Positions 15,548 to 31,182 of a DNA stretch of 64,000 nt are shown piece by piece. A program made the position numbers and the translations under genes. A model generated the notes under the pieces. That model was given only the letters and a program-made list of their open reading frames with translations. It made no database searches and was not told where the DNA came from. The DNA is from Deltaproteobacteria bacterium GWC2_55_46 (GTDB taxonomy: Bacteria > Desulfobacterota > GWC2-55-46), in NCBI GenBank assembly GCA_001595385.3, contig LVEI03000001.1:1083501-1147500 (forward strand). The letters are read 5' to 3'. Position 1 is the stretch's first letter. Each line of letters opens with the position of its first letter.

Positions 15548-16414
15548 TCAGTTCAGTGCGCTGTTGCCCAGGCCAAGTCCGCTGAGCACGCTGCGCATCG
15601 GAGCGAACCTGAACGCGGAGAGCAGGCTCGCTGTTTTTTCCATGGTCTTGTCGATATTGGTGTAATGCCTGAAGCTTGACAGAAGGCCTGCATCTATCCG
15701 CGGCTGTCCCGGGTCCATCTCCCACGGATGAAAATATAAGACTGCAGGCTGCTTCTCCGATTCGTTTATGTGAGCTATGGCTTTTTTGATCACCCAAAGC
15801 GGAAATAGCCTCAAATACCCGCCGCCCGCCACCGGGAGCCTGAACGCGCGCCCCCAGATGCTGAACTCCCTCGTTGAAAGCGGGAACTCGAGTATTGAGC
15901 CTGTCGGCCTTTTAATGACGTAAGGAAACCTTTCAGCGCCTGGTATGCCGTACACGTCATGCGTTATCGGGAATATGCTGGAATCGTACGAGAACCCTTC
16001 CTCTATTAAAATATCGATGGCCCACAGAGAGTTTCCGGTGATCGAGTAGCTCGGGGCCCTGTAGCCGGTGACCGCCTGGCCGGAAGCGTCCTCGAGTATG
16101 GACTTCGCGCGTTTCACGTCAGCCCTGAAGCCTTCCGCCCCAAGCCTGTATACAAGACCGTGACCGTAGCCATGGCAGGCGATCTCGTGACCCCTTTCCT
16201 GGATCCTCCTCACCAGCTGAGGAGCCCGCTCAGCCACCCAGCCGAGCACAAAGAAGGTCGCCTTTACCGAATGCTCGTCAGCCATGTCCAGCACCCTCAG
16301 GGTATTGTCGACCACCCTGGAGGGCAGGCTGTCCCATTCCCCCTTCTTTATGTACTTCTCAAAGGCGGTAACGTGATAGTAATCCTCCACGTCTATTGTA
16401 AGTGCGTTGCGCAT
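15548..16414 (-). CDS. Polysaccharide deacetylase, XrtA system type (DUF3473)
   Basis: 288 residues. A NodB-type domain begins at once with MRNALTIDVEDYYHV (catalytic and metal Asp) and continues with ATFFVLGWV, HEIACHGYGH (metal His residues) and YRAPSYSIT. The tail has FHPWEMDPGQPRI and the C-terminal DUF3473 extension found in exosortase-A loci. It is predicted to de-N-acetylate amino sugars of the polymer. The ATG at 16414 was chosen over a TTG at 16462 because the family starts at the VEDY motif and AGGAAAGG lies eight bases ahead. Confidence 0.9.
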   Translation of the reverse strand: MRNALTIDVEDYYHVTAFEKYIKKGEWDSLPSRVVDNTLRVLDMADEHSVKATFFVLGWVAERAPQLVRRIQERGHEIACHGYGHGLVYRLGAEGFRADVKRAKSILEDASGQAVTGYRAPSYSITGNSLWAIDILIEEGFSYDSSIFPITHDVYGIPGAERFPYVIKRPTGSILEFPLSTREFSIWGRAFRLPVAGGGYLRLFPLWVIKKAIAHINESEKQPAVLYFHPWEMDPGQPRIDAGLLSSFRHYTNIDKTMEKTASLLSAFRFAPMRSVLSGLGLGNSALN

Positions 16415-16458
16415 GTGCCAGGCCTTTCCTGAGCCCCCACCCCGGGGGCATGCCTTTC

Positions 16459-17691
16459 TCAAAAAGTCTTAGCGACCCCTACCGCTACCCTGTGGGTCTC
16501 GTGGTTGTCGGAGTCTACTGCAGCTGATTCGTAATCGATGAAGTTGTACGTCAGATTTACGGAGGCATCCTCTCCGAGAGAGTACTCAAGCGCCTGGCTC
16601 ACTATCGTCCTGAAGGTCGTAGCGCTCTGAGGATAAAAAATATACTTCTCCCTGCCCACGCTCGCGGAATAAGCGAGCCTGGAAGTGAAGTCGTGCTTAA
16701 GTCCAGCCGTAAAACCGTACCTTCTCGTATCGCGCTTGTCCGTGGCGGTGTTGACGTAATCGCTGAAATTGTGACCGAGCGTAAGTACGGTCCTTGCCCC
16801 GGCCTTCTTCACGAGGGTCGCCATGTAGCCATATTGGAATTTCGGGACGGAACGCGGGTCTTCGGCTATCCTGCCTGACGATGTGAACGCCGCTTCGAAA
16901 TAACCGAGCTCATGCCTTACGGCCAGGTCCCAGACCGGGCTGTCGATATCGCTGCCGTCATCGAAGGTGAGCTTGCTGTAACCGGCTGAGGCTGCCAGTG
17001 ACGCTCCGGCCGCGTACTCATACTTGAGGTCCGCCCAGGCCTCGACCCTGTCAAAATCGGAAATACGGTTTAACTGCCTGCCGTACTCGGCCCTGAGGCC
17101 TCCGGACGTCTTTTGCGACAGGTCGAAAGTAGAGGCGATGAACACGGAGTTCTCTTTCTTATCCACGCTCTCCTCGTCCTTGTACCAGTAATCCGAGTGC
17201 CTGTAGCCTGCCCTGAGGGATGTCGAGGATGACGGCCTCAGGACGATATACGGCTCGACCGCGAAAACATTGGCGTCGGTCTGGTTCAGGATGATGCTCT
17301 CCTGCAGCCTTTCCCTCGATATGTCCTTCGAGACCCTTGCGTAATCGTCGGTGACCTTCAGAAAGAACACATTACGAAGCAACTCGGCATTGAGCTTAAG
17401 AGCGGCCTTGTGGGACTCCAGGCTCTTGTCGCTGTGCCTGGCGAAATTTATCCAGTCGAAGAAATAGGACGCGCTGAGGCTCATCCTTGACGCCTCATAC
17501 CTGGCGTTGAAGCCGGGGAGTATCCTTGTGATGAAATCCTCTTCCCTGTCCGACCTGGAGGCGAATATATTGTCGTTGTATTCAACGCTCGCCGTTATTG
17601 CGGGCTGGATGGCCTTTTCAGACGCTTCGGCTGCGGCAGGCAGTAAGAGCGCGACAACAGCAATGAGTATGTATCCCGATACGATCTTCAT
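16459..17691 (-). CDS. Outer-membrane beta-barrel protein, PEP-CTERM locus-associated
   Basis: 410 residues with a signal peptide (AAVALLLPAAAEAS region; cleavage near 24). Alternating hydrophobic/polar strands run to a C-terminal Phe (HRVAVGVAKTF), as in outer-membrane barrels assembled by BAM. The opening strand ASVEYNDNIF is typical of the TIGR03016-like family that accompanies exosortase-A exopolysaccharide genes. It may form a secretion or surface-anchoring channel for the polymer. It stands between the XrtA-associated ATPase (nine bases upstream) and the deacetylase. Confidence 0.82.
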   Translation of the reverse strand: MKIVSGYILIAVVALLLPAAAEASEKAIQPAITASVEYNDNIFASRSDREEDFITRILPGFNARYEASRMSLSASYFFDWINFARHSDKSLESHKAALKLNAELLRNVFFLKVTDDYARVSKDISRERLQESIILNQTDANVFAVEPYIVLRPSSSTSLRAGYRHSDYWYKDEESVDKKENSVFIASTFDLSQKTSGGLRAEYGRQLNRISDFDRVEAWADLKYEYAAGASLAASAGYSKLTFDDGSDIDSPVWDLAVRHELGYFEAAFTSSGRIAEDPRSVPKFQYGYMATLVKKAGARTVLTLGHNFSDYVNTATDKRDTRRYGFTAGLKHDFTSRLAYSASVGREKYIFYPQSATTFRTIVSQALEYSLGEDASVNLTYNFIDYESAAVDSDNHETHRVAVGVAKTF

Positions 17692-17700
17692 CTGCGCCGT

Positions 17701-18870
17701 TCATCCGAGTATCCGCCTGAAGATGCCCTTTTTCAAAGGCTTCTCCTCCGCGGATATTTTGTTGGTGTACTTTATAACGGTGTCATAAGGCTCAGGCCTC
17801 TCGTCTTCTTTTTCCGGGACGGAGTGGTTCTTCTCGAAATGCTCGGAGACAAGCCTTTCAACAAGGTCCAGCCTTCTGCCTAGCTCCCTTGCCGAGAAGA
17901 CATCGATGCCCGCCGGCCTTTTCTCGATGAGATCCACCCTTTCGCTGACCTCATTGATCATCGAGATGACCTGCTCTGGCTGAGCCTTCGGCGCGGCTTC
18001 GACTCTACATCCGCCGTCTTTGTCACCGGCCTTTTCGCTCGCCCAGTACTGGTTCTCGAAATCGAGTTCCCTTACTATGTCTATGGCCGTCCGGGCGTCT
18101 ATTGCCCTGGCCTTCTCCATGTACGCGGTGAGCATCAGGAAGTCGCATATAATATTGATGAGCCTTGGTATCCCATTGCTGTACCGGTGTATTATGTCGA
18201 GCGCTTCCGTGGTGAACGAGACCGCGTTCCTGTTGCCGGCGACCTGGAGCCTGTGGAATATGTACTCCTCGGTCTCATTCCGGAGGAGGTTATACAGATG
18301 GCAGCTTATATTGATGCGCTGCCTCAACTGGCGAAGTTCCGGCCTTGCAAGCATGGCCTTGAGCTCAGGCTGTCCCACGAGTATTATCTGCAGGAGCTTG
18401 GAGCTGTCGGTCTCGAGGTTGGAAAGCATGCGCACCTCCTCGAGGAGGTCCATCGAGAGGTTCTGCGCCTCGTCGATTATGAGCACCGGGGAGCAGCGCT
18501 TCGCGTACATCTCGATAAGAAAGTCGTAGAGCTCCTTCATGAGCACGGTCTTGTCGTTGCCGGATGCCTTAAGGCCGAAATCCGTGTTTATAAGCCTTAA
18601 GAGCTGCTCGGAGTCGACCCTTGTGCTGAAGACCTTGGAGACGACGACGTCCTTGCCGAGTCCATTGATCAGGTTGCGTATGAGCGTGGTCTTCCCCGCG
18701 CCCACTTCCCCGCTCAACAGTATGAACCCCGCCCTCTCGTTTATGCCGTACTCGAGATACATCGTGGCCTTCCTGTGGGTCTTGCTCATATACAGGAACT
18801 CCGGGTTCGGCACCAACTCGAATGGTTTGGCCGAAAGGCCGAAGAATTTTTCGTAGTCTGACATATTCAT
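17701..18870 (-). CDS. XrtA/PEP-CTERM system-associated AAA ATPase (ExeA-like)
   Basis: 389 residues. The N-terminus YEKFFGLSAKPFELVPNPEFLY is the ExeA/GspA-type start. Walker A is GEVGAGKTTL (about 55-64) and Walker B is LIIDEAQNLS (about 128-137), with an arginine-rich sensor region following. After about residue 270 there is a low-complexity linker and a polar tail, without the peptidoglycan-binding domain of ExeA. It belongs with the neighbouring tyrosine kinase and chain-length protein and probably energises or regulates assembly at the inner membrane. Confidence 0.9.
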   Translation of the reverse strand: MNMSDYEKFFGLSAKPFELVPNPEFLYMSKTHRKATMYLEYGINERAGFILLSGEVGAGKTTLIRNLINGLGKDVVVSKVFSTRVDSEQLLRLINTDFGLKASGNDKTVLMKELYDFLIEMYAKRCSPVLIIDEAQNLSMDLLEEVRMLSNLETDSSKLLQIILVGQPELKAMLARPELRQLRQRINISCHLYNLLRNETEEYIFHRLQVAGNRNAVSFTTEALDIIHRYSNGIPRLINIICDFLMLTAYMEKARAIDARTAIDIVRELDFENQYWASEKAGDKDGGCRVEAAPKAQPEQVISMINEVSERVDLIEKRPAGIDVFSARELGRRLDLVERLVSEHFEKNHSVPEKEDERPEPYDTVIKYTNKISAEEKPLKKGIFRRILG

Positions 18871-18883
18871 TCGCCCGCGCGCC

Positions 18884-19699
18884 TCAATAATTGTAATATG
18901 AATAGTGCTGGCTCATCTCTGTTTCAGCCCCGTTGTAGACTATGCCGAGCAGGTTCGAGCCCCTCAGGAGGTTAAGAGCCTCTCCGACGTGCTTTACCGA
19001 TGCCGCCCTCTCCCTCACCACAAACAGGACGCCATCGACAGACGCGCTGAGGGACAGGGATTCGGCAAAGGGCAGTATCGGCGGGGCGTCTATGATTACG
19101 TACCTGTCGGGATACCTCTGTTTAACTCCGGCGATGAAGTCCTTCATCTTCTGTGACGAAAGGAGCTCAGCCGGGTTGTCTATCTTCCGGCCTGCCGGCA
19201 GGAACGAGAGCTTTCCCAGGTTGGTCCTTATGAGCGCTTTGGATAGGTCAAGGCCGTCCAGCAGGCAGTCCGTTATCCCAGGCTCGCCCTCCAGGTTCAG
19301 GTATTTGTTGAGCGAGGGCCTCCTGAGATCGGTGTCTATCAAAAGGACCGTAAAGTCGTAATCGCGCGACAGAGTGACGGCGAGGTTAAGCGACGTTATG
19401 CTCTTGCCCTCGGAACCTATCGAGCTCGTGACCAGTATGGTGTTCCGGAACTCTTCTGCTCCGGTGGTGAGGCCGACGATGATCGATTTGAGCTTCCTGT
19501 ACTCCTCGGCCACGGCGGAGCCCTGGTCGTTGAGGGCCACTATAAAAGGGCTTACGCAGCTCACGTCAACCACCCTCGCCGGGGTCGAAGGCGTCTCGGC
19601 AACCGGCCTGCCTGCAGGCGGCTCCTTATGGGCCTTTTCAGGAGACCTCTGCTCCCTCAGTCTGGCCGCCTTCTCTATCGCTTGGTCGATCCTGCTCAT
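18884..19699 (-). CDS. XrtA-associated protein tyrosine autokinase (BY-kinase)
   Basis: 271 residues. The Walker A is SSIGSEGKSITSLNLA (about 111-126), the A' motif is LLIDTDLRRPSLNKYL, and Walker B is YVIIDAPPIL. The C-terminus is a tyrosine cluster (QHYSYYNY), the autophosphorylation tail of bacterial BY-kinases. It is the cytoplasmic partner of the chain-length protein encoded immediately upstream; cycles of autophosphorylation control polymer length and export. It lies 31 bases after that gene. Confidence 0.92.
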   Translation of the reverse strand: MSRIDQAIEKAARLREQRSPEKAHKEPPAGRPVAETPSTPARVVDVSCVSPFIVALNDQGSAVAEEYRKLKSIIVGLTTGAEEFRNTILVTSSIGSEGKSITSLNLAVTLSRDYDFTVLLIDTDLRRPSLNKYLNLEGEPGITDCLLDGLDLSKALIRTNLGKLSFLPAGRKIDNPAELLSSQKMKDFIAGVKQRYPDRYVIIDAPPILPFAESLSLSASVDGVLFVVRERAASVKHVGEALNLLRGSNLLGIVYNGAETEMSQHYSYYNY

Positions 19700-19730: not shown

Positions 19731-21266
19731 TCAAAGCTTTCCTATGTACGCGCCCAGATCCGTCGCCTCGAAGACAAGTATCGCGATGAGGACGACGGCG
19801 TATGCCCCGGCTATGGAAAAAGCCAGCATGTCCCTTCTTTTCCTCACGACGGCATCCGCCGGGTTCCTTATGACGGGTATTACCGCCAGCACCGGGACAT
19901 TGAACTGGCTCAAGTCGTCTGGCCTCTTTGCGGAGGCGCTTAGATAATCGAGCGCGATAACGGCGCCAACCCCTCCCGCTATCCCCAAGAGAAGCCCCAG
20001 CAGGATTATCTGCACGCGGTTGGGGCTCACCGGCCTGGCCGATACCATGGCCGGGTCGACTATCCTGAAGGTCGCGGTCTTATCCTGGACCTCCATCTGC
20101 TTTGACACCTCAGATTGCCCGAGCTTGGCGACAAGGTCCTCGTAGATGCTCCTGTAAGTGTTCCTTTCCATCTCGAGCTCTGAAAGCTTCGTCTTCTCGG
20201 CGGGTATGTTCCTCAGATAGCTCTCCTTGGAGCCCACCAGCCTTCTCATGTGCTCTTCTTTCGCCGCTACGGCCGCCAATTCCCGTTCGGTCTTGTTGTA
20301 CTCGTCCTTGAGCTGGTGATAGACGGGGTTTATCGTGGAAAGCTCGGTGTCAGCGGCCCCGCTGTCATATGGCTCTCCCTCTTTCCTGTTCTTGAGCATC
20401 TCCTTGAACGACTCCATCTCGACCTGGGTCCTCATAACCTCGGGATAATCCTTGGTGTAGGTCATCATCAGCTCGCGGAGCCTCTTCTGAAGCGAGATCA
20501 ATCGCTCCTGCAGCGAATCCCTGCTCATAAGCGCCACAGTGTACGGCTTCTCCTGGCCGAGCTGCTTTTTTATGACCTCCCGCCTCGCCTCGAGCTCCCT
20601 TTTCTGGATCTTTATCGCGTCAAGCCCGTCCTGCACCCCTTTTATGTCAGAGACCACGGCGGTCTCGTTCACCGCCACGAAGACGCCCTTCTCCTTCCGG
20701 AACTTGATGACCTCTCCCTCTACCTCGTCCAGCTTTGCCTTGAAAAAGCTTATCTGCTCGGACAGGAACCTGTTCGCGCCGTAGGCCTCTTCCCTCTTGG
20801 ATGAGATATTTTCCTCGATGTACATACGCACGAGCGTATTGACGTAGTCCGAGGCGAACTTCGGGTCAGCGTCCTTGAAAGAGACCACAAAGAGGTCCAT
20901 GTCCTTCATATTCACCATGGTCCTGTTCTGCAGGTCCTTGACAAGGCTTTCAACCTGGCGGTCGTCCTTCACGTCCACCCCGAGGGTGTTGACCACCTTC
21001 GTAAGGATGTTCCTGCTGGAGATGGCGTATGAAAGGACGCGGAGCCTGTCCTGCATGGAAGGGGTTACCGCTATGTCCTTTATCAGCTCGTTTATCACGT
21101 TCTTCTCTATGAAGACAGTGCTCTTGGCCTCGTACGCCTTCGGCAGGGCGTAGCTCAACACGACCGAGCCGGCCGAGATGACGAGCACAACCGCAAGGAA
21201 CAGGTACCTGTTCCTTATGACGAGCTGGGCGTATTTCCTGATATCAAGACCGCTGTCGCGCTCCAT
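19731..21266 (-). CDS. XrtA system polysaccharide chain-length determinant (Wzz-type)
   Basis: 511 residues. A Wzz domain with an N-terminal membrane helix (about 18-38) is followed by a long, largely coiled-coil periplasmic part (about 160-410) and C-terminal helices (about 425-445 and 475-495), the layout of PCP-2/3 co-polymerases. It forms an inner-membrane oligomer that sets chain length and links the kinase to the export porin. The ATG at 21266 has AGGAGG six bases ahead and is better placed than the TTG one codon upstream. Confidence 0.92.
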   Translation of the reverse strand: MERDSGLDIRKYAQLVIRNRYLFLAVVLVISAGSVVLSYALPKAYEAKSTVFIEKNVINELIKDIAVTPSMQDRLRVLSYAISSRNILTKVVNTLGVDVKDDRQVESLVKDLQNRTMVNMKDMDLFVVSFKDADPKFASDYVNTLVRMYIEENISSKREEAYGANRFLSEQISFFKAKLDEVEGEVIKFRKEKGVFVAVNETAVVSDIKGVQDGLDAIKIQKRELEARREVIKKQLGQEKPYTVALMSRDSLQERLISLQKRLRELMMTYTKDYPEVMRTQVEMESFKEMLKNRKEGEPYDSGAADTELSTINPVYHQLKDEYNKTERELAAVAAKEEHMRRLVGSKESYLRNIPAEKTKLSELEMERNTYRSIYEDLVAKLGQSEVSKQMEVQDKTATFRIVDPAMVSARPVSPNRVQIILLGLLLGIAGGVGAVIALDYLSASAKRPDDLSQFNVPVLAVIPVIRNPADAVVRKRRDMLAFSIAGAYAVVLIAILVFEATDLGAYIGKL

Positions 21267-21276
21267 CAAACCCCTC

Positions 21277-22080
21277 CTAAAAAAGCCCTTCCCTTACCAC
21301 GACATAATCGCCGGGGCTCAAGGCCAGGTTCTGGCTTAAGTCTCCCTTTTTCGTGAGGTCTTCCGCTCTCACCGGTATCGACGACCTCTTGTTGTCGCCG
21401 TTCTTCCTGAAGACGGTGACCCCGTTCTGGTTCGCGAACTTGGTGAAGCCTCCGGCCTCGAGTACGGCCTCCATGACGGTGAGACCCTCCCTGTACTCGA
21501 TGAACTTGGGGGTATTCACCGCGCCAACGACATAGACGCTCCTTTCAAGGAGCACTGGCATGAATATCACGTCATTGGGCTCGATGACGATGTCATCCGA
21601 GGTCTTGCCTGTTATGAAAAGGTCGTAGAAGTCCTCCTTGACCTTTTTGCCATCCCTCTGGACGTAAGCGCGCTTCAGGTCCGCGCCCTTCGTCTCGCTT
21701 ATCTGGCAGAGCAGCTGAAGGAGCGTCGTCCTTTTGTTAAGGTCCACGACCCCGGACTTTACTCCTCCCCCGAAGACATAGACCTTGCTGTTGTTTATGC
21801 CCTCCACTATGACGTTCACGGTCGGGTTCTTGACTATCGACTTGAGCCGCTCGGTCAGGACCTCCTGGAGCCCTGCCGGGGTATAGCCGGTCGCTACGAC
21901 GTCCCCGATGGCCGGGATCGTGATCTTTCCGTCAGGCCTCACCCTTACAGGGGTGCTGAGCTCCTTGACGCCCCAGACAGATATGACGAGTGTGTCCCCG
22001 TCGCCTATGACGTAGTCTCCGGCCCTGGCCTGGCCGGATGCCAAAACAAGAAGTATTGCGAGCAATAGGGTCTTCTTCAA
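21277..22080 (-). CDS. XrtA system exopolysaccharide export protein (Wza-like, SLBB domain)
   Basis: 267 residues with a signal peptide (cleavage near GQARA). The poly-export motif is YVIGDGDTLVISVWGV, followed by SLBB-type repeats (VYVVGAVNTPKFIEY and VYVFGGGVKSGVVDL). It is shorter than Wza and ends soon after the SLBB region (LALSPGDYVVVREGLF). It should form the periplasmic part of the export channel in the outer membrane. No clear lipobox is visible. The start is a TTG with GAGG about nine bases ahead. Confidence 0.92.
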   Translation of the reverse strand: MKKTLLLAILLVLASGQARAGDYVIGDGDTLVISVWGVKELSTPVRVRPDGKITIPAIGDVVATGYTPAGLQEVLTERLKSIVKNPTVNVIVEGINNSKVYVFGGGVKSGVVDLNKRTTLLQLLCQISETKGADLKRAYVQRDGKKVKEDFYDLFITGKTSDDIVIEPNDVIFMPVLLERSVYVVGAVNTPKFIEYREGLTVMEAVLEAGGFTKFANQNGVTVFRKNGDNKRSSIPVRAEDLTKKGDLSQNLALSPGDYVVVREGLF

Positions 22081-22092
22081 GGTCTCCGTCCT

Positions 22093-23442
22093 CTATCTCC
22101 CGCCTCTTCCGAACAACATGACCTTTGCGGTCTCGACCAATATGAAGATGTCCAGAAGGGGGGAGAGGTGTTTTATGTAGAAAAGGTCGTATCTGAGCTT
22201 CTCGAGCGAATCGTCGACAGAGGCGCCGTAAGGGTACTTTATCTGCGCCCAGCCCGTTATGCCCGGCTTCACGTAGTGGCGCTCCGTGTAAAACGGGATG
22301 GCCTCGCTGAGCTGGCTTATGAATTCCGGCCTCTCGGGCCTTGGCCCGACCAGGCTCATGTCGCCCCTGAGCACGTTGTAGAGCTGTGGTATCTCGTCGA
22401 GCCTCGATTTGCGAAGCCACCTGCCGATGCGCGTAACCCTCGGGTCGTTCTCCTGGCTCCAGACGGCGCCTGTTTCGGCCTCGGCGTCATTTCGCATGGT
22501 CCTGAATTTATAGAGGGCGAACTTCTTCCCCTTCTGGCCGACCCTTATCTGCCTGAAGAGGACCGGGCCTGGCGAATCGGCCTTCACCGCGAGCACTATG
22601 AATGGAATCATCGGCAGGGCGACAAGCAGCGCCGCGACCGACGTAAACATGTCGAAGACGCGCTTAAGGAGCATCTTCGAATGGGTGATCCTGAAGCCGT
22701 CAGAGAATATGAACCAGCTCGGGGTGATGTTCTCTATAAGGAGCTTGCCCGTTACCTGCTCGTAAAAAGAGGGCGCGTCCATCACTTCTATTCCGCCGAG
22801 CTTGCAGTCCAGCACGTCGCGGAGCGGGAAAGAGCCGCGCCGCTCTGAAAGGGATACCACTATCTTGTGGGCCTTTTCCTTCTGGACGGTCTCGGCGAGC
22901 CCCTCGCCACTGCCGATTATGGAATGCAGCGGCACCAGCACGGTCTCGTTGGTGCAGTTCACGTAGCCGGCCAGCACGTAATTATGGCTCATGCCGTTCA
23001 TGACCGAGCCCATTTTATTCGCAAGCGGCCCTGTCCCGAGTATAAGCACCCTTTTCGCGAAGGTCGGAAGGCTCGACGATATCCGGAACGCGAGATGCCC
23101 CAGGAACTGATATACCGCAAACGACCCGAGCGAAAGCGCGAGCACGCCCCTGCCGATCATAAGCTGCGGAATAAGATAATAGGCGGTCGCCAATATGAAA
23201 AAGGACAACGCCATCGAGACGATCACCTTGGCAGAAATTTCTTTTTTTCCAGCGTTTTTCTCCAGGTTATAGAGCTCGCAGAGAAATGATGAGACTATGA
23301 GGACAGCCGCGAAAAAGAGAGCGCCGAGCCCAAAAAGAGAGCTTGCCTCAAGCGAGGTCCCGAAGCGTATGAACCACCCCGTATAGACCGCGAGGCAGGC
23401 CATCAACAGATCAAAGAGAATGAGTATGGAGACCTTTCCCAT
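22093..23442 (-). CDS. Polyprenyl-phosphate sugar transferase, XrtA system (TIGR03013-like)
   Basis: 449 residues. Four N-terminal membrane helices and a CoA-binding-like Rossmann segment (KRVLILGTGPLANKMGS, about 127-143) precede the C-terminal bacterial sugar-transferase domain: KRVFDMFTSVAAL, LYKFRTMRNDAE, SRLDEIPQLYNVLRGDMS and VGPRPERPEF. This PglC/WbaP-type reaction places the first sugar-phosphate on undecaprenyl phosphate and so starts repeat-unit synthesis. It is the first dedicated biosynthetic gene after prsT, 13 bases downstream of it. Confidence 0.93.
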   Translation of the reverse strand: MGKVSILILFDLLMACLAVYTGWFIRFGTSLEASSLFGLGALFFAAVLIVSSFLCELYNLEKNAGKKEISAKVIVSMALSFFILATAYYLIPQLMIGRGVLALSLGSFAVYQFLGHLAFRISSSLPTFAKRVLILGTGPLANKMGSVMNGMSHNYVLAGYVNCTNETVLVPLHSIIGSGEGLAETVQKEKAHKIVVSLSERRGSFPLRDVLDCKLGGIEVMDAPSFYEQVTGKLLIENITPSWFIFSDGFRITHSKMLLKRVFDMFTSVAALLVALPMIPFIVLAVKADSPGPVLFRQIRVGQKGKKFALYKFRTMRNDAEAETGAVWSQENDPRVTRIGRWLRKSRLDEIPQLYNVLRGDMSLVGPRPERPEFISQLSEAIPFYTERHYVKPGITGWAQIKYPYGASVDDSLEKLRYDLFYIKHLSPLLDIFILVETAKVMLFGRGGR

Positions 23443-23455
23443 CGTTTTTACCTTT

Positions 23456-26236
23456 TTACCTTCTTACGGGTTCTTTTATTTTCTTCAAAATCTGCCTTGC
23501 GCTCTGGGCCTCAGGGAATTCTCCTTTAGCCAGCGCCTTTTCAATCGTCAACGCCGCCTCCCTGTCCAGGCCCTTACCCTTCTGGGCGAGGGCGAGATGA
23601 TACAATACGGAGGGATTGTCCGGCAGCAGGTCGGAAGACCTTTTTAGCGCCGTGATGGCCTGGTCATACTTCCCGCTCTTGGTCAATATATAGCCGAGGG
23701 TGTCGAGGATGCTCGGGTCTTTCGGCGCAAGCACGTAGGCCCTGGCCGCAAGCTGTATGGCAGCCTGCGTATTCCCACCCTGGTCGGCATAGTAGTACGC
23801 GAGGTTATTGAGAGCTGGCACATGGTTTGGCGCTATCCTGAGGATCCTCTGATATTCGGTCGCTGCCTGCGCCTTTTTGCCGGTCAATTCAAGGATCGAA
23901 GCCGCCTGAAAGATGACCTGGGGGTTATTCGGGCTGACCTTCTCGGCGTCCCTGTATACCTGTAGAGCCGATTTAAAATCCCTTGCCCTGACATGGACAG
24001 ACCCCAGCATGATATACGGCGTGATGTCCTTTCCTGAAAGGCTTACGGCCTTCTTAAGGCTTCCTACAGCCTTGCTCACGTCACCAGATGACTGTTGCAC
24101 TATGGACATGGCGATGTACCCGATGGGGCTGCCAGGCCTGTCCTTTATCACATCCCTCGCGGCGGACTCGGCGGCATCCAGCTTGCCCATTGTCGCGTAT
24201 ATGCGGGCAGTCTCCGCCATAAGGACCGGGTTCCCCGGTTCCCTCGCAAGCTCCTTTTTGATCTTGTTCAAGGCGTCCTCGGGTTTCTTCATGGCAAGAT
24301 ACGTATTTACTATGAGGGCAAAGCCCGCCTTCGGGGCCTTCTTCTCTATCTCTTCAAAGACCTTGATCGCCTCATCGAATCTCTTTTCCGTCATGAGCGC
24401 CTTGCCTTTCATCTCGAGTACGGCAGGGTTCGAAGGCTCTGTCTTAAGTATCTTGTCCAGATAATCGATGACGGCGCCAAATTCCTTTTTGCCCAGGTAA
24501 TGGTTCGAAAGCTCCATATAGGCCTGCCTGGTGCCGATCTCTGAGGCCATCTTCAAATAGGAGGCGGCCTCGTCCCTTTTACCGGTGGCCTCAAGGACAG
24601 AGGCGAGCATGACCATGGCCTTTGGGTCCTTGGGGGCCTTCGATACGAAGGCCTTGAGCTCCTCGACTACTTTTTCAGAAGCGCCTGAAAAGGAATAGAT
24701 GGTGGCGAGCGCGAAGTGCGGGGCCGGCAGCTCCGGGTTGAGCTGCTTTGCCTTCTCCAGTATCTTTATGGCTTCTCCGGGCTTGTTCTCCCGGAGCAGT
24801 ACTTCAGCCATCACTGTATGCAGGACAGCGTCCGCCTTCCCGCCCGAAAGGCCTTTCGAGATGGTCTCTTTCGCCTTCGCGAGATCATTGTGCTTTATAT
24901 AATGATTTACGAGGATGAGCCTGGAGTTCAACTGTTCAGGGGCGATCTCTACCGCGCTCCTGAAATTGGCCTCCGCGTCCCTGCTCCTGCCCTTCGAGAG
25001 GCTATACATGCCCTTTTTAAGATGCGCGTCAACAAGCTTGGGGTCGAGGTCTATGGCCTTATTGAGCTCGGCTATTCCCTGCTCGTGCATATTCTTCGCC
25101 ATGTAGGCGCTACCGAGCACATTGTGGGCGAGGGCGTTTTGCGGGTCGGTCTCCAAAGCCTTTCCGGCTTCGTTTATCGCGTCGTCAACCCTGCCCTGTA
25201 TCAGCAGCACCATCGAGAGCATGACCCTCGGCGGCACATAAGAGGGCTCCAGGTCGAGCGATTTCTGGAACTGGCTGGTGGCCTGTTCGAGCTGGCCCCT
25301 CTGGTAATGGGCCTGGCCGAGGAAATAGAGCGTAAGCGGGCTCGCTCCGAGGGTTGAAGCCTTCTGCAGAAGCGTAATAGAGTCATCCAGGTTTTTCTTA
25401 TAGCTGAACGCGACCCCCTTGATAAGGTAACCTTCCGGCCTGTTAGGGTATTTTTCGATGAGCTTCCCGCTCAATTGTACCGCTTCGTCATGCCTGCCCG
25501 TGTCCAGCAAGATCGAGCCCTTCCTGTAAAGCGCCTGAAGGTCGTCAGGGTTGCCTTTAAGTACCTGGTCCAGGCTCCTTACCGCCCCGTCGTAGTCTCC
25601 TTTGCTGCCGTACACTTCGGCCAGCATGTAAAGGGCGTTCCTGTTGCCTGGCTCTTTCGCCAGCACCTTATCGACGCCGGCCTTCGCCTCTTCCTGCCTG
25701 CCCATGGCCATGTATACCTTTGAGAGCAGCAGCTCGGTCTCTGACCTCTGGCCGTTGAGGGACAGGGCATTTTTCATATGGTCTACGGCCCTGTCGTATT
25801 CCGCTTTTGACGCCTCTGCCAGGCCAGCGGCCTCGAACGCGTCCGCGTCCGTCGAGCCGTCCGAGATGAGGTCCTTTATCTCGCTGAGGGCTTCATCCGG
25901 CCTGTTCTTCTGTACGTATACCTTCGCGAGCTCTATCCTGGCCTCCTTGAGGGAGGGGTTCTGCCTGATTACTTTCTGAAGCTCCTTTTCCGCGGAATCG
26001 AAGTTGGCGAGGCTGTAATAGGCCTTGGCGAGCTGGAAGCGCGCCTCAAAATAGTTCGGGTCCTGCTCCAGCGCGTTCTTGAAATATACGACCGCGCCCC
26101 TCGAGTTCTTCTCCTCCATCAGCTTTGTGCCTTCCTTGAGGAGCTCCTCCTTCTGTTTGCCCGCGTTGCCGCACGCGGTCACGAGCGTCATGAACAAAAG
26201 AAAAGAGACCGAGGCGAAAAACCTTCCCTTAAACAA
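23456..26236 (-). CDS. prsT: TPR lipoprotein PrsT of the XrtA/PEP-CTERM system
   Basis: 926 residues with a lipoprotein signal (MTLVTACGN; Cys near 22). More than twenty tetratricopeptide repeats fill the protein, recognisable by recurrent A-x-Y-x-L-A, G-x-A and P spacing, as in NPQVIFQAASILELTGKKAQ. The length matches PrsT. It is predicted to be a periplasmic scaffold for polymer secretion. The TTG start at 26236 has AGGAG nine bases ahead and overlaps the upstream receiver-like gene by eight bases, so the two are co-translated. Confidence 0.93.
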   Translation of the reverse strand: MFKGRFFASVSFLLFMTLVTACGNAGKQKEELLKEGTKLMEEKNSRGAVVYFKNALEQDPNYFEARFQLAKAYYSLANFDSAEKELQKVIRQNPSLKEARIELAKVYVQKNRPDEALSEIKDLISDGSTDADAFEAAGLAEASKAEYDRAVDHMKNALSLNGQRSETELLLSKVYMAMGRQEEAKAGVDKVLAKEPGNRNALYMLAEVYGSKGDYDGAVRSLDQVLKGNPDDLQALYRKGSILLDTGRHDEAVQLSGKLIEKYPNRPEGYLIKGVAFSYKKNLDDSITLLQKASTLGASPLTLYFLGQAHYQRGQLEQATSQFQKSLDLEPSYVPPRVMLSMVLLIQGRVDDAINEAGKALETDPQNALAHNVLGSAYMAKNMHEQGIAELNKAIDLDPKLVDAHLKKGMYSLSKGRSRDAEANFRSAVEIAPEQLNSRLILVNHYIKHNDLAKAKETISKGLSGGKADAVLHTVMAEVLLRENKPGEAIKILEKAKQLNPELPAPHFALATIYSFSGASEKVVEELKAFVSKAPKDPKAMVMLASVLEATGKRDEAASYLKMASEIGTRQAYMELSNHYLGKKEFGAVIDYLDKILKTEPSNPAVLEMKGKALMTEKRFDEAIKVFEEIEKKAPKAGFALIVNTYLAMKKPEDALNKIKKELAREPGNPVLMAETARIYATMGKLDAAESAARDVIKDRPGSPIGYIAMSIVQQSSGDVSKAVGSLKKAVSLSGKDITPYIMLGSVHVRARDFKSALQVYRDAEKVSPNNPQVIFQAASILELTGKKAQAATEYQRILRIAPNHVPALNNLAYYYADQGGNTQAAIQLAARAYVLAPKDPSILDTLGYILTKSGKYDQAITALKRSSDLLPDNPSVLYHLALAQKGKGLDREAALTIEKALAKGEFPEAQSARQILKKIKEPVRR

Positions 26237-26630
26237 TGTTATATTCTCCTTTTACGTCGTAATCTCCGGCCATCACCTGTTTTATTACGAGCGTGAACTT
26301 CTGATAATTAAGGGGCTTGAGCATGCAGTAGGTGGTCTTGTTGTCAAGGACGCTCATCAGTTCCGTGTCTATGTGCGTGGCCAGGATCATGAGCGGGACC
26401 GCCCTTTTCTTCAGCTCCTCCAGAAGGACGTTCCCGTACGGGTAGCTCGTGATGACCAGGCCGAACTCGTTCTGGTCGAGCTTCTTCGCGAGCTCCCCCA
26501 TTTCATTGGCCAGGACCTCTGTTCCAAACCCCTCGGACCCCAGGATTGCCGAGCAGACTTTCGAGAAACCGGCGTCATCGATGATGAGAATGCGCTTCTT
26601 GAACATGCCAGTCAGAATTGCAAGTTTCAT
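26229..26630 (-). CDS. Receiver-like protein lacking the phospho-acceptor Asp
   Basis: 133 residues, a lone receiver fold. It keeps the acidic pair (ILIIDDAG, Asp18-Asp19), the switch Thr (ILATH, Thr85) and the conserved Lys (MLKPL, Lys105). At the usual phospho-acceptor position it has Ser (LVITSYPYG, Ser62). It may act as a constitutive or ligand-controlled pseudo-receiver. The ATG at 26630 has AGGAAG eight bases ahead; frames from 26666 or 26606 are also possible. It is the first gene after a 250-base control region and is coupled to prsT, suggesting a role in regulating or localising the export machine. Confidence 0.7.
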   Translation of the reverse strand: MKLAILTGMFKKRILIIDDAGFSKVCSAILGSEGFGTEVLANEMGELAKKLDQNEFGLVITSYPYGNVLLEELKKRAVPLMILATHIDTELMSVLDNKTTYCMLKPLNYQKFTLVIKQVMAGDYDVKGEYNIV

Positions 26631-26787
26631 GCCCAGCTTCCTGGGAGAGTCCAGGTCAAAAGACATGATACGTACCCATCGGTGGAGGGTTTTGATTTTA
26701 ATAAGGATTTTCAGAAAAGGAGTGGTGACTTAAGGATGGAGTAGGCTTTTCAGATTAGACTGAAATCATACCTTTGGATGAGAGCAC

Positions 26788-26914
26788 TGTTTCCAAAAGA
26801 AACACTTTCTGCCAAGATAGCGTTTTAATTGGGGTATGTTTGTATCTTTTCGATACACTTTCAATTTTCCTTTTAAATCCCGCAATTAGGGCTTAAGTGT
26901 TTCCATTGGATACA
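26788..26914 (-). promoter_or_regulatory. Three inverted-repeat operators, TGTWTC-N5-GAWACA
   Basis: Three 17-base inverted repeats occur at 26788-26804 (TGTTTC / GAAACA), 26841-26857 (TGTATC / GATACA) and 26898-26914 (TGTTTC / GATACA), each with a 5-base spacer. Their centres are 53 and 57 bases apart, about five helical turns, so they face nearly the same side of the DNA. They lie upstream of the receiver-like gene and prsT and just past the stop of the NtrC-like gene, a position suited to enhancer sites for it. A TATGAT box at 26765-26770 would put a -35 element over the first site. Confidence 0.6.
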
Positions 26915-28279
26915 TCAAGCCAGTTCAGCCTCTTTAAGCCTCTTGTAGAAGGCCTTTCTGGAGATACCGAGCATCTTCGCGGCCTTTGATTTGTTGCCTT
27001 TGCACTCCTGCAGTGTCTTTGTTACAGCATCAAGTGCCATCTCCTTGAGGGTCAGGGCAGATGAGTGGCGCCGTGGGGCGCTTCCAGCGGACCGTGTGCC
27101 GAGCAGGAATTCCTCCGGGAGCTCTTTGATCGTTATCCTGTCTTTTTTCGCGAGGACCACGGCCCGTTCAACTACGTTTTTGAGCTGCCTTATGTTGCCG
27201 GGCCATGGATAGCCCTCGAAGATCCTCATGACGTCGTCGGATATCGTGAGGAGCTTTTTCTCCCTCAGGCATACCTCGCTGAGGAACTCGGACAATATGA
27301 GCGGCAGGTCGGCCCTCCTCTCCCTCAGCGGCGGCACCGTAAGCTGCACGACGTTTATCCTGTAGAAGAGGTCCCTTCTGAACGTGCCATGCTCGACCTC
27401 TGCCTTCAGGTCCCTGTTGGTAGAGCATATGAGCCGGAAGTTTACCTTTATCTTCTTGCTGCTCCCGAGCCTCTCCATCTCGCGCTCCTGGAGCACCCTC
27501 AGAAGTTTCGCCTGGAGCTGAAGCTCCAGCTCCCCTATTTCATCGAGGAAGAGCGTGCCGCCTTCGGCCTCTTCGAACCTCCCGATCCTTGTGGAGAGCG
27601 CGCCCGTGAAAGAGCCTTTCTGGTAGCCGAAGAACTCCGCCTCCATCAGCTCTCGCGGGAACGCGGCGCAGTTCACCGCCACGAAGGGATTCTCGCGCCG
27701 CGAGCTCGTATAATGAAGCGTCTTGGCGATGAGCTCCTTGCCGGTGCCTGTCTCGCCGGTTATCAGCACGCTCGAAGCGGTGTTCTTTACAGACTCGATC
27801 ATCTCGACTATTTTTCGCATCTCGTGCGTGGTGCCAATGATGAAGTGCTGGATATGCTCGGAGGAGAGCCTTTTCCGAAGCGTGTCGACCTCGCGCTTAA
27901 GGCGCCTCTGCTCAAGGGCCCTGGCGAGTATGCCTTTTAGCTTAAGGTAGTCCGGCGGCTTGATGAAATAATAGAACGCGCCCCTGGTCATGGCCTGGAC
28001 AGCCGAATCGACGCTGCCGTAAGCGGTAAGGAAGATGACCGGCACGTCCGGGTGCCTCTCGGAAGCGTACTCGAAGAGCTGCATGCCGTTTTTCCCCGGC
28101 AGCTTTATATCGGTTATGACAGCGTCGAGGTCCTCTGAATCCATGAGCTCGATGCCCTGCTCGGCTGTCATCGCGCTCAATATATGATAGCCTTCCTCCG
28201 CGAGGATGGCCGAGAGGACCTTTACGGCGTTTGGCTCGTCGTCTATTATCGCTATCTTCGCTCTTACAGTTGAATTCAT
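26915..28279 (-). CDS. NtrC-family sigma-54 response regulator
   Basis: 454 residues: a receiver (IIDDEP, phospho-acceptor Asp57 in VITDIKLPG, Lys107), an AAA+ domain (Walker A GETGTGKE at 175-182; GSFTGA at 222-227, a variant of the sigma-54 contact loop GAFTGA; Walker B TLFLDEIGE) and a C-terminal Fis-type helix-turn-helix (KSKAAKMLGISRKAFYKRL). It activates sigma-54 promoters when phosphorylated. It overlaps the kinase gene (ATGA). The receiver looks like AtoC/NtrC rather than the PrsR proteins usual in PEP-CTERM loci, so I do not call it prsR. Its targets are probably the downstream operon. Confidence 0.9.
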   Translation of the reverse strand: MNSTVRAKIAIIDDEPNAVKVLSAILAEEGYHILSAMTAEQGIELMDSEDLDAVITDIKLPGKNGMQLFEYASERHPDVPVIFLTAYGSVDSAVQAMTRGAFYYFIKPPDYLKLKGILARALEQRRLKREVDTLRKRLSSEHIQHFIIGTTHEMRKIVEMIESVKNTASSVLITGETGTGKELIAKTLHYTSSRRENPFVAVNCAAFPRELMEAEFFGYQKGSFTGALSTRIGRFEEAEGGTLFLDEIGELELQLQAKLLRVLQEREMERLGSSKKIKVNFRLICSTNRDLKAEVEHGTFRRDLFYRINVVQLTVPPLRERRADLPLILSEFLSEVCLREKKLLTISDDVMRIFEGYPWPGNIRQLKNVVERAVVLAKKDRITIKELPEEFLLGTRSAGSAPRRHSSALTLKEMALDAVTKTLQECKGNKSKAAKMLGISRKAFYKRLKEAELA

Positions 28280-29283
28280 CCGGCAAAACCATCAGCCGCG
28301 GGGATGTACAGGCGCACGAGGGTGCCCCCCTTGCCGCTTTTTATGTCCATGCGCCCGCCGTTCTGCCTTACCAGCTCCCGCGTAAGGAGGAGGCCGAAGC
28401 CCTTGCCTTCGCCCTTTTTCGGGAATACAAGGACGTCCTCGCCAAAGAGCTGCAAGCCGGGGCCGGTATCAGATATCTCGATTACGACCATGCAGTTGCC
28501 GTTATCATTGTCAACAGATGTCTTTACGCTGAACCCATCTCCTGCCTTCAATACCTCTATCGCGTTATTCACGATGTTGAGTATGGCATGCTCTATCTGG
28601 AAGGAGTTGGCCTGCGCCGGAGGGACGTCCCCGTACGAATAGGTGAACCTGATATCCCTGGAAGCGGCCTGCAGGGCCGTCAGCATCTCTATCTTCTTTA
28701 TGATGTCGTTTACATCCACCTCTGATATCTCGGCTTCAGATACCGAGGAGCTCAAAAACCTTGAGATGAAATCGTTGAGCCGTTTTGCCTCAAGCTCGAT
28801 AATATCCGTAAACTCCTTCAGGGTACTTTCCTGAGGATACCTTCCCCTCAAATAGACGACCGCGCCCATTATGGCGTTTAGCGGGTTTCTGACGCTATGC
28901 ACAAACGCGGTCGCCGTCCTGCCGGTATCAATGAGGCTCTGGATGCCGGTCGTCGCGCTCTCGGGCCTGGCGGGATATGTCCGTATCTGGACCTCTGCCC
29001 CGCCTGCCCTGTGCCGCTTATCCATGATCGGGCTTATCTCGACGTCGGACTTGACCTGTCCAAGGACGGAGTTGAAGTAATGCCCCTTGATGGCAACGGG
29101 GCGGGCGGTCCTCAGCACCTTTACAAGAGCGTCCCTGTTATCAACGAATATCCTGGGCAGCACCATATAATACTTCTTGCCCAGGGCGTTGCCTGCGGCT
29201 ATGCCGGTAGCCTGTACGGCATCCTGGTTCCAGACGTTCACTATGAGCCTGGAATCGGTCCCGAATTTAAAGCTTTTCTCCAT
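28276..29283 (-). CDS. NtrB-like soluble sensor histidine kinase
   Basis: 335 residues without membrane helices. The N-terminal ~110 residues look like a PAS-type domain (NVWNQDAVQATGIAAGNALGKKYYMVLP). The His box is AFVHSVRNPLNAIMG (His129). The ATPase domain has an N box (LNIVNNAIEVL), DTGPG and GKGFGLLLTREL. It probably phosphorylates the NtrC-like regulator encoded by the overlapping downstream gene. Canonical PrsK kinases are far longer and membrane-bound, so input sensing here should differ and be cytoplasmic. Confidence 0.88.
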   Translation of the reverse strand: MEKSFKFGTDSRLIVNVWNQDAVQATGIAAGNALGKKYYMVLPRIFVDNRDALVKVLRTARPVAIKGHYFNSVLGQVKSDVEISPIMDKRHRAGGAEVQIRTYPARPESATTGIQSLIDTGRTATAFVHSVRNPLNAIMGAVVYLRGRYPQESTLKEFTDIIELEAKRLNDFISRFLSSSVSEAEISEVDVNDIIKKIEMLTALQAASRDIRFTYSYGDVPPAQANSFQIEHAILNIVNNAIEVLKAGDGFSVKTSVDNDNGNCMVVIEISDTGPGLQLFGEDVLVFPKKGEGKGFGLLLTRELVRQNGGRMDIKSGKGGTLVRLYIPAADGFAG

Positions 29284-30354: not shown

Positions 30355-31038
30355 TCAGATACTGTAGGTGCTGTCCCTCTCCCAATCAGTGAAGAAATGG
30401 AAGAGCTCTGGTTTGCGCTGGGCTATCTGGCGCTCGATATTGCTTATCCTGGCTATATAGGGGATCCTGTTGCCGTGATACTCCGTGACGTCCCCGATCT
30501 GGTTGAAGACCACGCCGGAGACCTTCAGGAGCTGAAAGAGGCTCTTTTCCATTACAGCATACCAATTGACCACGCCCAGCCACTTGCTCTCCCTGTACAT
30601 GGCCTTGTAAAGCCCGAGCACTATCTCTGGACGGCGGCGCTGGCTGTGGCCCGCTGACGAGGACTCGTCCACGGTAGAGCCGCTGGCGCCGTACAGGTCG
30701 TCGCCAGCCCTTCTCCTGTAGAGCTTGCTTATCGCGAGCCGCGAGACCTCTACAGCGCTGTCTTTTGGGACTTGAGAGGTATCGAGCCTGGTCTTGCAGT
30801 GTTTCTCGATGGGAAAGCCGAGCTCTGACGACTTTATTAGCCTTACCGTCCCGACTATGTTGTCATGCCTGTCCTTGGCTATGAAGTGCACCGAGTGCTC
30901 GTCGTACTCGTCCCTTTCCGTCCCCGAGGGGTGGTCCGCGGTCGACTCAAACCCGCATTCGAGGCAGTAGACCTGGTACCGGAGCTTGAAAACCTCCTTC
31001 AGCTCGTCTTCAGTCTCTACCCGCTTGAATGTGAACAT
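30355..31038 (-). CDS. PEP-CTERM/exosortase system-associated acyltransferase
   Basis: About 227 residues. The start FTFKRVETEDELKEVFKLRYQVYCLECGFE is typical of the GNAT-like, autoinducer-synthase-related family found beside exosortases. AVEVSRLAISKLYRR and GLYKAMYRESKWLGVVNWYAVMEKSL are the later conserved blocks. It may acylate the sorting product or a signal molecule; the substrate is not known. The ATG at 31038 matches the family start; a longer frame begins at 31143. It sits convergent to the CPBP protease gene and downstream of the PEP-CTERM gene. Confidence 0.82.
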   Translation of the reverse strand: MFTFKRVETEDELKEVFKLRYQVYCLECGFESTADHPSGTERDEYDEHSVHFIAKDRHDNIVGTVRLIKSSELGFPIEKHCKTRLDTSQVPKDSAVEVSRLAISKLYRRRAGDDLYGASGSTVDESSSAGHSQRRRPEIVLGLYKAMYRESKWLGVVNWYAVMEKSLFQLLKVSGVVFNQIGDVTEYHGNRIPYIARISNIERQIAQRKPELFHFFTDWERDSTYSI

Positions 31039-31182
31039 AGGAACGCCGCCCTGTATAGGGTTAGTGAGAATCCGCTGAGTGAGTGAGGGCAGGCGTATCA
31101 TGCCTGCGGGAAAAATACTATCATATTCATCTACTTGCCGCAAAGGAAATCAGGATGAGAGCGGCCACGGGATAAGGGTGTC

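Follow-up and report, generated by a model that had tools for sequence, protein, structure and literature searches.

In the NtrC/NifA paradigm, a phosphorylatable AAA+ activator works from 17-bp palindromic enhancers that lie upstream of a -24/-12 promoter. Here we analysed a 64,000-nt stretch of the genome of Deltaproteobacteria bacterium GWC2_55_46 (contig LVEI03000001.1, positions 1,083,501 to 1,147,500; hereafter the window), in which three 17-bp inverted repeats separate the gene of an NtrC-family response regulator from an operon that begins with a pseudo-receiver gene and prsT. The three repeats are very probably enhancers (upstream activating sites) of the adjacent regulator, a putative enhancer-binding protein (EBP), acting on a predicted sigma-54 promoter of the prsT operon. 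As in NtrC systems, the palindromes measure 17 bp, form a cluster 160-300 bp ahead of a -24/-12 promoter and are accompanied by a phosphorylatable AAA+ activator; unlike NtrC enhancers, they differ in the inner bases of the half-sites, occur as three well-separated copies and apparently serve a single local operon.

The promoters of PEP-CTERM genes controlled by PrsR/PrsK carry two sequence elements, motif 1 and motif 2, and control of these genes by canonical PrsR was proposed (Haft et al. 2006, PMC1569441). Our locus shares with that system an NtrC-family response regulator with a Fis-type helix-turn-helix (HTH), a link to PrsT and exopolysaccharide genes, and a 17-nt motif, sometimes repeated, upstream of a -24/-12 box. 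However, the 17-nt motif 1 ends in TTTACA and precedes PEP-CTERM genes, whereas the present sites have TGTWTC/GAWACA half-sites in three copies and precede the prsT operon, whose promoter abuts the start codon. The present regulator also falls below the PrsR cut-off, its presumed kinase is distinct from PrsK, and canonical PrsR proteins are encoded elsewhere in the genome. For Desulfovibrio, we draw on parts of two accounts of the D. vulgaris sigma-54 regulome (PMC4641369, PMC3333781). There, as at our locus, EBP genes are co-localised with the promoters they control, regulons are small and TGT/ACA half-sites lie 9-12 bp apart, a spacing common among Desulfovibrio EBPs (PMC4641369). The exopolysaccharide regulator DVUA0057, which controls PEP-CTERM and exopolysaccharide genes, differs from the present EBP in that its predicted motif is common with DVU0110 and in that it acts at several PEP-CTERM genes. 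Neither a triple site nor a pseudo-receiver nor a leaderless start is described in those parts of the two accounts.

Three perfect palindromes between the regulator gene and the prsT operon

The earlier note, made from the letters of the window, had described three copies of TGTWTC-N5-GAWACA between the NtrC-like regulator gene and the receiver-like/prsT operon, with centres 53 and 57 bases apart. All three were found exactly where it had placed them, each a perfect match of 17 bp, and the spacing and gene order were reproduced:

26788-26804: site 1, promoter-proximal putative EBP-binding palindrome, TGTTTCCAAAAGAAACA; its centre lies 188 bp ahead of the predicted start of transcription
26841-26857: site 2, putative EBP-binding palindrome, TGTATCTTTTCGATACA
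26898-26914: site 3, distal putative EBP-binding palindrome, TGTTTCCATTGGATACA; adjoins the stop codon of the regulator gene

The repeats had also been called in-phase, which holds for the 53-bp interval (~5.05 helical turns) and fails for the 57-bp interval (~5.4 turns); strict helical phasing of all three sites was not supported. A genome-wide motif search found no perfect copy beyond these three in 2.79 Mb. Copies with one mismatch numbered six; they are dispersed, each single and every one within an open reading frame (ORF), and were rejected as additional operators on these grounds. Three perfect 22-bit sites inside 127 bp are far beyond chance. Paired sites were seen in one other genome among the 395 of the phylum sample, where the context is unrelated. 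An extra imperfect palindrome, TCATCCAAAGGTATGA (about 26766-26782, minus strand), lies a few bases past site 1 and is common to the nearest relative only.

Each site is a short inverted repeat and one stands beside a stop codon, features that would also suit a structural element (RNA hairpins, an attenuator or terminator, or a mobile or repetitive extragenic palindromic (REP)-type repeat) that binds no protein; the pair-pattern scan described below did return REP-like repeats of the same pattern in other bacteria, e.g. Acetobacterium. We nevertheless regard a structural origin as extremely improbable. The genome holds three copies only, all at this locus, there is no terminator-like site at the region, the N5 centres differ among the sites while the half-sites are kept, and both copy number and position beside the regulator are conserved over phyla.

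A predicted sigma-54 promoter and a corrected gene start

No clear sigma-54 box (GG-N10-GC) had been reported in the earlier note. We found one, at a position conserved in orthologues:

26619-26634, minus strand: predicted sigma-54 -24/-12 promoter, GGGCATGAAACTTGCA (GG 26633-26632, N10, GC 26621-26620); predicted transcription start about 26608

Nothing else in the 420 nt upstream matches the sigma-54 consensus as well: the box agrees at 10 of 12 positions. The centre of the nearest site lies ~165 bp upstream of it, and the 188 bp from that centre to the predicted start is a normal enhancer distance. Orthologous loci carry GGGCACGGAACTTGCG, GGGCACGGTTTTTGCG, TGGCACTCTATTTGCA, TGGCATCAGACTTGCT, AGGCATTAAACTTGCT and AGGCATCGATCTTGCT at the equivalent place. 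The box had been overlooked because the start of the receiver ORF was set too early: the longest frame begins at ATG 26666, hiding the promoter, whereas orthologue starts point to ATG 26606-26604 (MFKKRILIIDD). The genome contains rpoN (TIGR02395, 417.9 bits, above cut-off). A candidate sigma-54 box picked by eye across site 1 (TGGCAGAAAGTGTTTC) was rejected, since its spacing is wrong and the downstream box is much better conserved.

The same region bears on whether another factor, either a repressor or a class II activator, might act at a sigma-70 promoter with its -35 element inside site 1. The TATGAT hexamer that had raised this alternative is indeed present, at 26770-26765, and its distance from site 1 would suit a -10 element. 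However, no sigma-70-type promoter scores in the region, and in the closest relative the hexamer is replaced (GGGATGA) while the sites and the -24/-12 box are kept. The class II activation or repression alternative loses support with this lack of conservation, and a sigma-70 promoter under site 1 was rejected. Since the sites also track a sigma-54 activator clade across phyla, we judge control by such a factor very unlikely.

Conservation of the sites across phyla

Among the 30 genomes of the window's family, orthologues of the receiver and of the regulator occur in an identical set of four. Each of the four loci carries three sites in the interval that separates these genes; in one of them, two of the three sites carry one mismatch. 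We then looked beyond the family in two ways. A pair-pattern scan of the genomes of ~85,000 species, with the outer half-site fixed as TGTTTC and no protein criterion, returned 54 stretches, many of which are unrelated repeats or neighbours of Firmicute EBP genes. The scan also returned orthologous loci with the order EBP, sites, pseudo-receiver and prsT from one Geobacteraceae genome, one Desulfuromonadaceae genome and genomes of Nitrospirota. Separately, loci were selected by the receiver protein alone, and 48 of these had enough upstream sequence. At least one site with at most one mismatch was present in 44 of the 48, and the 75 such sites compare with a mean of 0.19 in dinucleotide shuffles and none for the reversed pattern. 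The pooled sites give the consensus TGTWTCc-nnn-gGAWACA. A -24/-12 box was found upstream in 39 of the 48 loci (shuffles 13.8, maximum 19), and its placement at -36 to -27 in 20 of them (shuffles 0.40, maximum 2) represents strong positional clustering.

Conservation of the repeats thus extends to the neighbourhoods of orthologous regulators from the window's family, Desulfuromonadia and Nitrospirota, which supports the proposal of the earlier note that they are probable operators of the adjacent NtrC-like protein. Because the loci spread over at least two phyla and the remaining intergenic DNA has diverged, simple descent is insufficient to account for retention of the half-sites.

Several results weigh against the enhancer reading. 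At nine of the 48 loci the 500 nt upstream of the receiver gene contain no good box; in several of these nine a box instead follows the receiver gene closely or stands farther upstream. The upstream region of one locus (L129) has no site at all, and some others have degenerate sites only. Site spacing in the relatives is variable: most values lie between 31 and 94 bp, peaking around 51-52 and 60-62 bp, and phasing is weak (R=0.25 at 10.5 bp, from rows that are not independent). The shuffle counts given above ignore relatedness among the loci, and the figures are not probabilities. An integration host factor (IHF) site between enhancer and promoter is common, if not universal, in sigma-54 enhancer systems; here the best IHF match in that interval is weakly above shuffles and not significant.

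Two sets of loci show other arrangements. At L128, L132, L134 and L135 the sigma-54 box stands after the pseudo-receiver gene and before sugar-nucleotide genes, and the sites thus lie >400 bp upstream of the promoter, across a gene. At L039, L052, L064 and L071, Firmicute sigma-54 activator genes lie near TGTTTC/TGTATC-GAAACA pairs, a possible parallel case; these activators have a different HTH (GIGRTTLYRK type).

The site-adjacent activators and canonical PrsR

Transcription runs on the minus strand, in the order kinase, regulator, three sites, pseudo-receiver and prsT, followed by XrtA-type exopolysaccharide genes. The presumed signalling pair is:

28276-29283, minus strand: histidine kinase of 335 aa (PAS-like, HisKA, HATPase_c), presumed partner of the regulator, not canonical PrsK
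26915-28279, minus strand: putative cognate response regulator of the NtrC family (receiver, AAA+ domain of sigma-54 activators and Fis HTH), PrsR-like, below the equivalog cut-off

The regulator matches Sigma54_activat (PF00158, 240.6 bits) and HTH_8 (PF02954, 43.2 bits), and scores 375 bits against the PrsR model TIGR02915, below the curated cut-off of 502.6. The kinase scores 47.1 bits against PrsK (TIGR02916; cut-off 300) and has 335 aa against a model of 679 positions. The site-adjacent EBPs fall in one clade (39 rows, support 100/97), with L142 and L143 branching apart, and share a near-invariant HTH, GNKSKAAKxLGISRKxxYKRL or, with fewer positions fixed, GNKSxxAxxLGxSRKxxYKRL.

The sites might instead be bound by a different EBP of this genome, e.g. 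one of its two canonical PrsR proteins. Sixteen proteins of the genome match the PrsR model strongly, and two of them exceed its cut-off (661 and 570 bits). The first is encoded at G000:C1:1077881-1079239, ~4.3 kb left of the window, and the second at 167556-168881. The PEP-CTERM genes of the genome have sigma-54 boxes too, upstream of most of them. Nevertheless, both canonical PrsR proteins lie outside the site-adjacent clade, and the recognition helix of the first reads SRPTLYDLM against SRKAFYKRL in the adjacent EBP; the published PrsR motif ends in TTTACA (PMC1569441). No good sites were found upstream of the eight PEP-CTERM genes of the genome, which were rejected as further targets. In each group where the sites were found, they occur together with members of the adjacent EBP clade and lie beside their genes. 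Binding by a different EBP is accordingly very unlikely in our view. One PEP-CTERM gene (L028, G000:C1 near 519133) carries TGTAAA-N5-CTTACA 59 nt before its -24/-12 box; this resembles motif 1 and likely marks a canonical PrsR target.

The adjacent EBP thus looks like a member of a PrsR-like subfamily that recognises a site of its own and serves the prsT operon specifically. The simplest reading is of two parallel circuits, in which canonical PrsR would control PEP-CTERM cargo genes here and the adjacent EBP would control the prsT export operon, the latter assignment being well supported at the level of sequence.

A short predicted leader and a receiver without its phospho-acceptor

Under the predicted promoter, the first gene of the operon is:

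26229-26606, minus strand: pseudo-receiver of 125 aa, with corrected start ATG 26606-26604 (from orthologue starts); identified as receiver-like by AlphaFold2/Foldseek fold and by alignment to the regulator's receiver

The -12 element lies ~14 nt before its start codon. If transcription is taken to start 12 nt past the C in the GC of the -12 element, the 5' leader would be 1-10 nt in 23 of the 43 loci with a box and >30 nt in 19. Shine-Dalgarno cores were found in one of the 23 short-leader loci versus nine of the 19 long-leader loci (p=0.002), and ATG is the start codon in 22 of 23 versus eight of 19 (p=0.0003), with relatedness among the loci weakening both p values. Few Shine-Dalgarno cores and the use of ATG are as expected of leaderless mRNAs, which suggests that the sigma-54 transcript may be leaderless.

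The pseudo-receiver had no match to a Pfam family. It models as a receiver (AlphaFold2, mean pLDDT (predicted local distance difference test) 79.7), and its closest solved folds are receiver domains (Foldseek). The phospho-acceptor Asp of the regulator's receiver (VITD) aligns with Ser in the pseudo-receiver (VITS), and all aligned orthologues have Ser at this position after strand 3; TSYPYG is near-invariant among them, and the SYPY within it is invariant. The pseudo-receiver gene opens the prsT operon in more than one phylum; speculatively, its product may tune the kinase or the EBP.

Genes of the operon

Judging from gene order, the operon would continue as follows:

23456-26236, minus strand: prsT, XrtA/PEP-CTERM TPR lipoprotein, second operon gene (TIGR02917, 574.7 bits; cut-off 312.2)
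22093-23442, minus strand: XrtA-system sugar transferase (TIGR03013)
21277-22080, minus strand: XrtA-system polysaccharide export protein (TIGR03027)
19731-21269, minus strand: XrtA-system chain-length determinant (TIGR03007)
18884-19699, minus strand: XrtA-associated tyrosine autokinase (TIGR03018)
17701-18870, minus strand: XrtA-associated ATPase (TIGR03015)
16459-17691, minus strand: PEP-CTERM-associated outer-membrane protein, probable operon continuation (TIGR03016)
15548-16462, minus strand: XrtA-system polysaccharide deacetylase, probable operon continuation (TIGR03006)

A little upstream of the kinase gene, 30355-31143 (minus strand) matches FeeM/autoinducer-synthase-like N-acyl transferases (PF13444, PF21926, PF00765).

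Discussion

We propose that the kinase (28276-29283) would phosphorylate the regulator (26915-28279), which would bind the sites as dimers and assemble into an AAA+ hexamer. Through DNA looping, the hexamer would remodel the sigma-54 RNA polymerase waiting at 26634-26619 (minus strand), activating rather than repressing the operon. Transcription of the pseudo-receiver/prsT/XrtA-type exopolysaccharide genes would then begin a few nt before ATG 26606.

More tentatively, this EBP subfamily, distinct from PrsR, could define a widespread and apparently undescribed control module for XrtA-type exopolysaccharide export. It would have its own TGTWTCC-N3-GGAWACA enhancer triplet and would drive a sigma-54 promoter whose transcript lacks a leader at roughly half of the loci. 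The first product would be a phosphorylation-dead receiver that exerts feedback on either the export machine or the kinase/EBP pair.

For a whole subfamily of sigma-54 activators from environmental bacteria, many of these bacteria known from metagenomes only, the analysis provides a putative binding motif together with a predicted promoter and target operon. It suggests that the polysaccharide export operon is controlled separately from the PEP-CTERM cargo genes, the latter by canonical PrsR, and it predicts a conserved leaderless sigma-54 transcript that would open with a phosphorylation-dead receiver.
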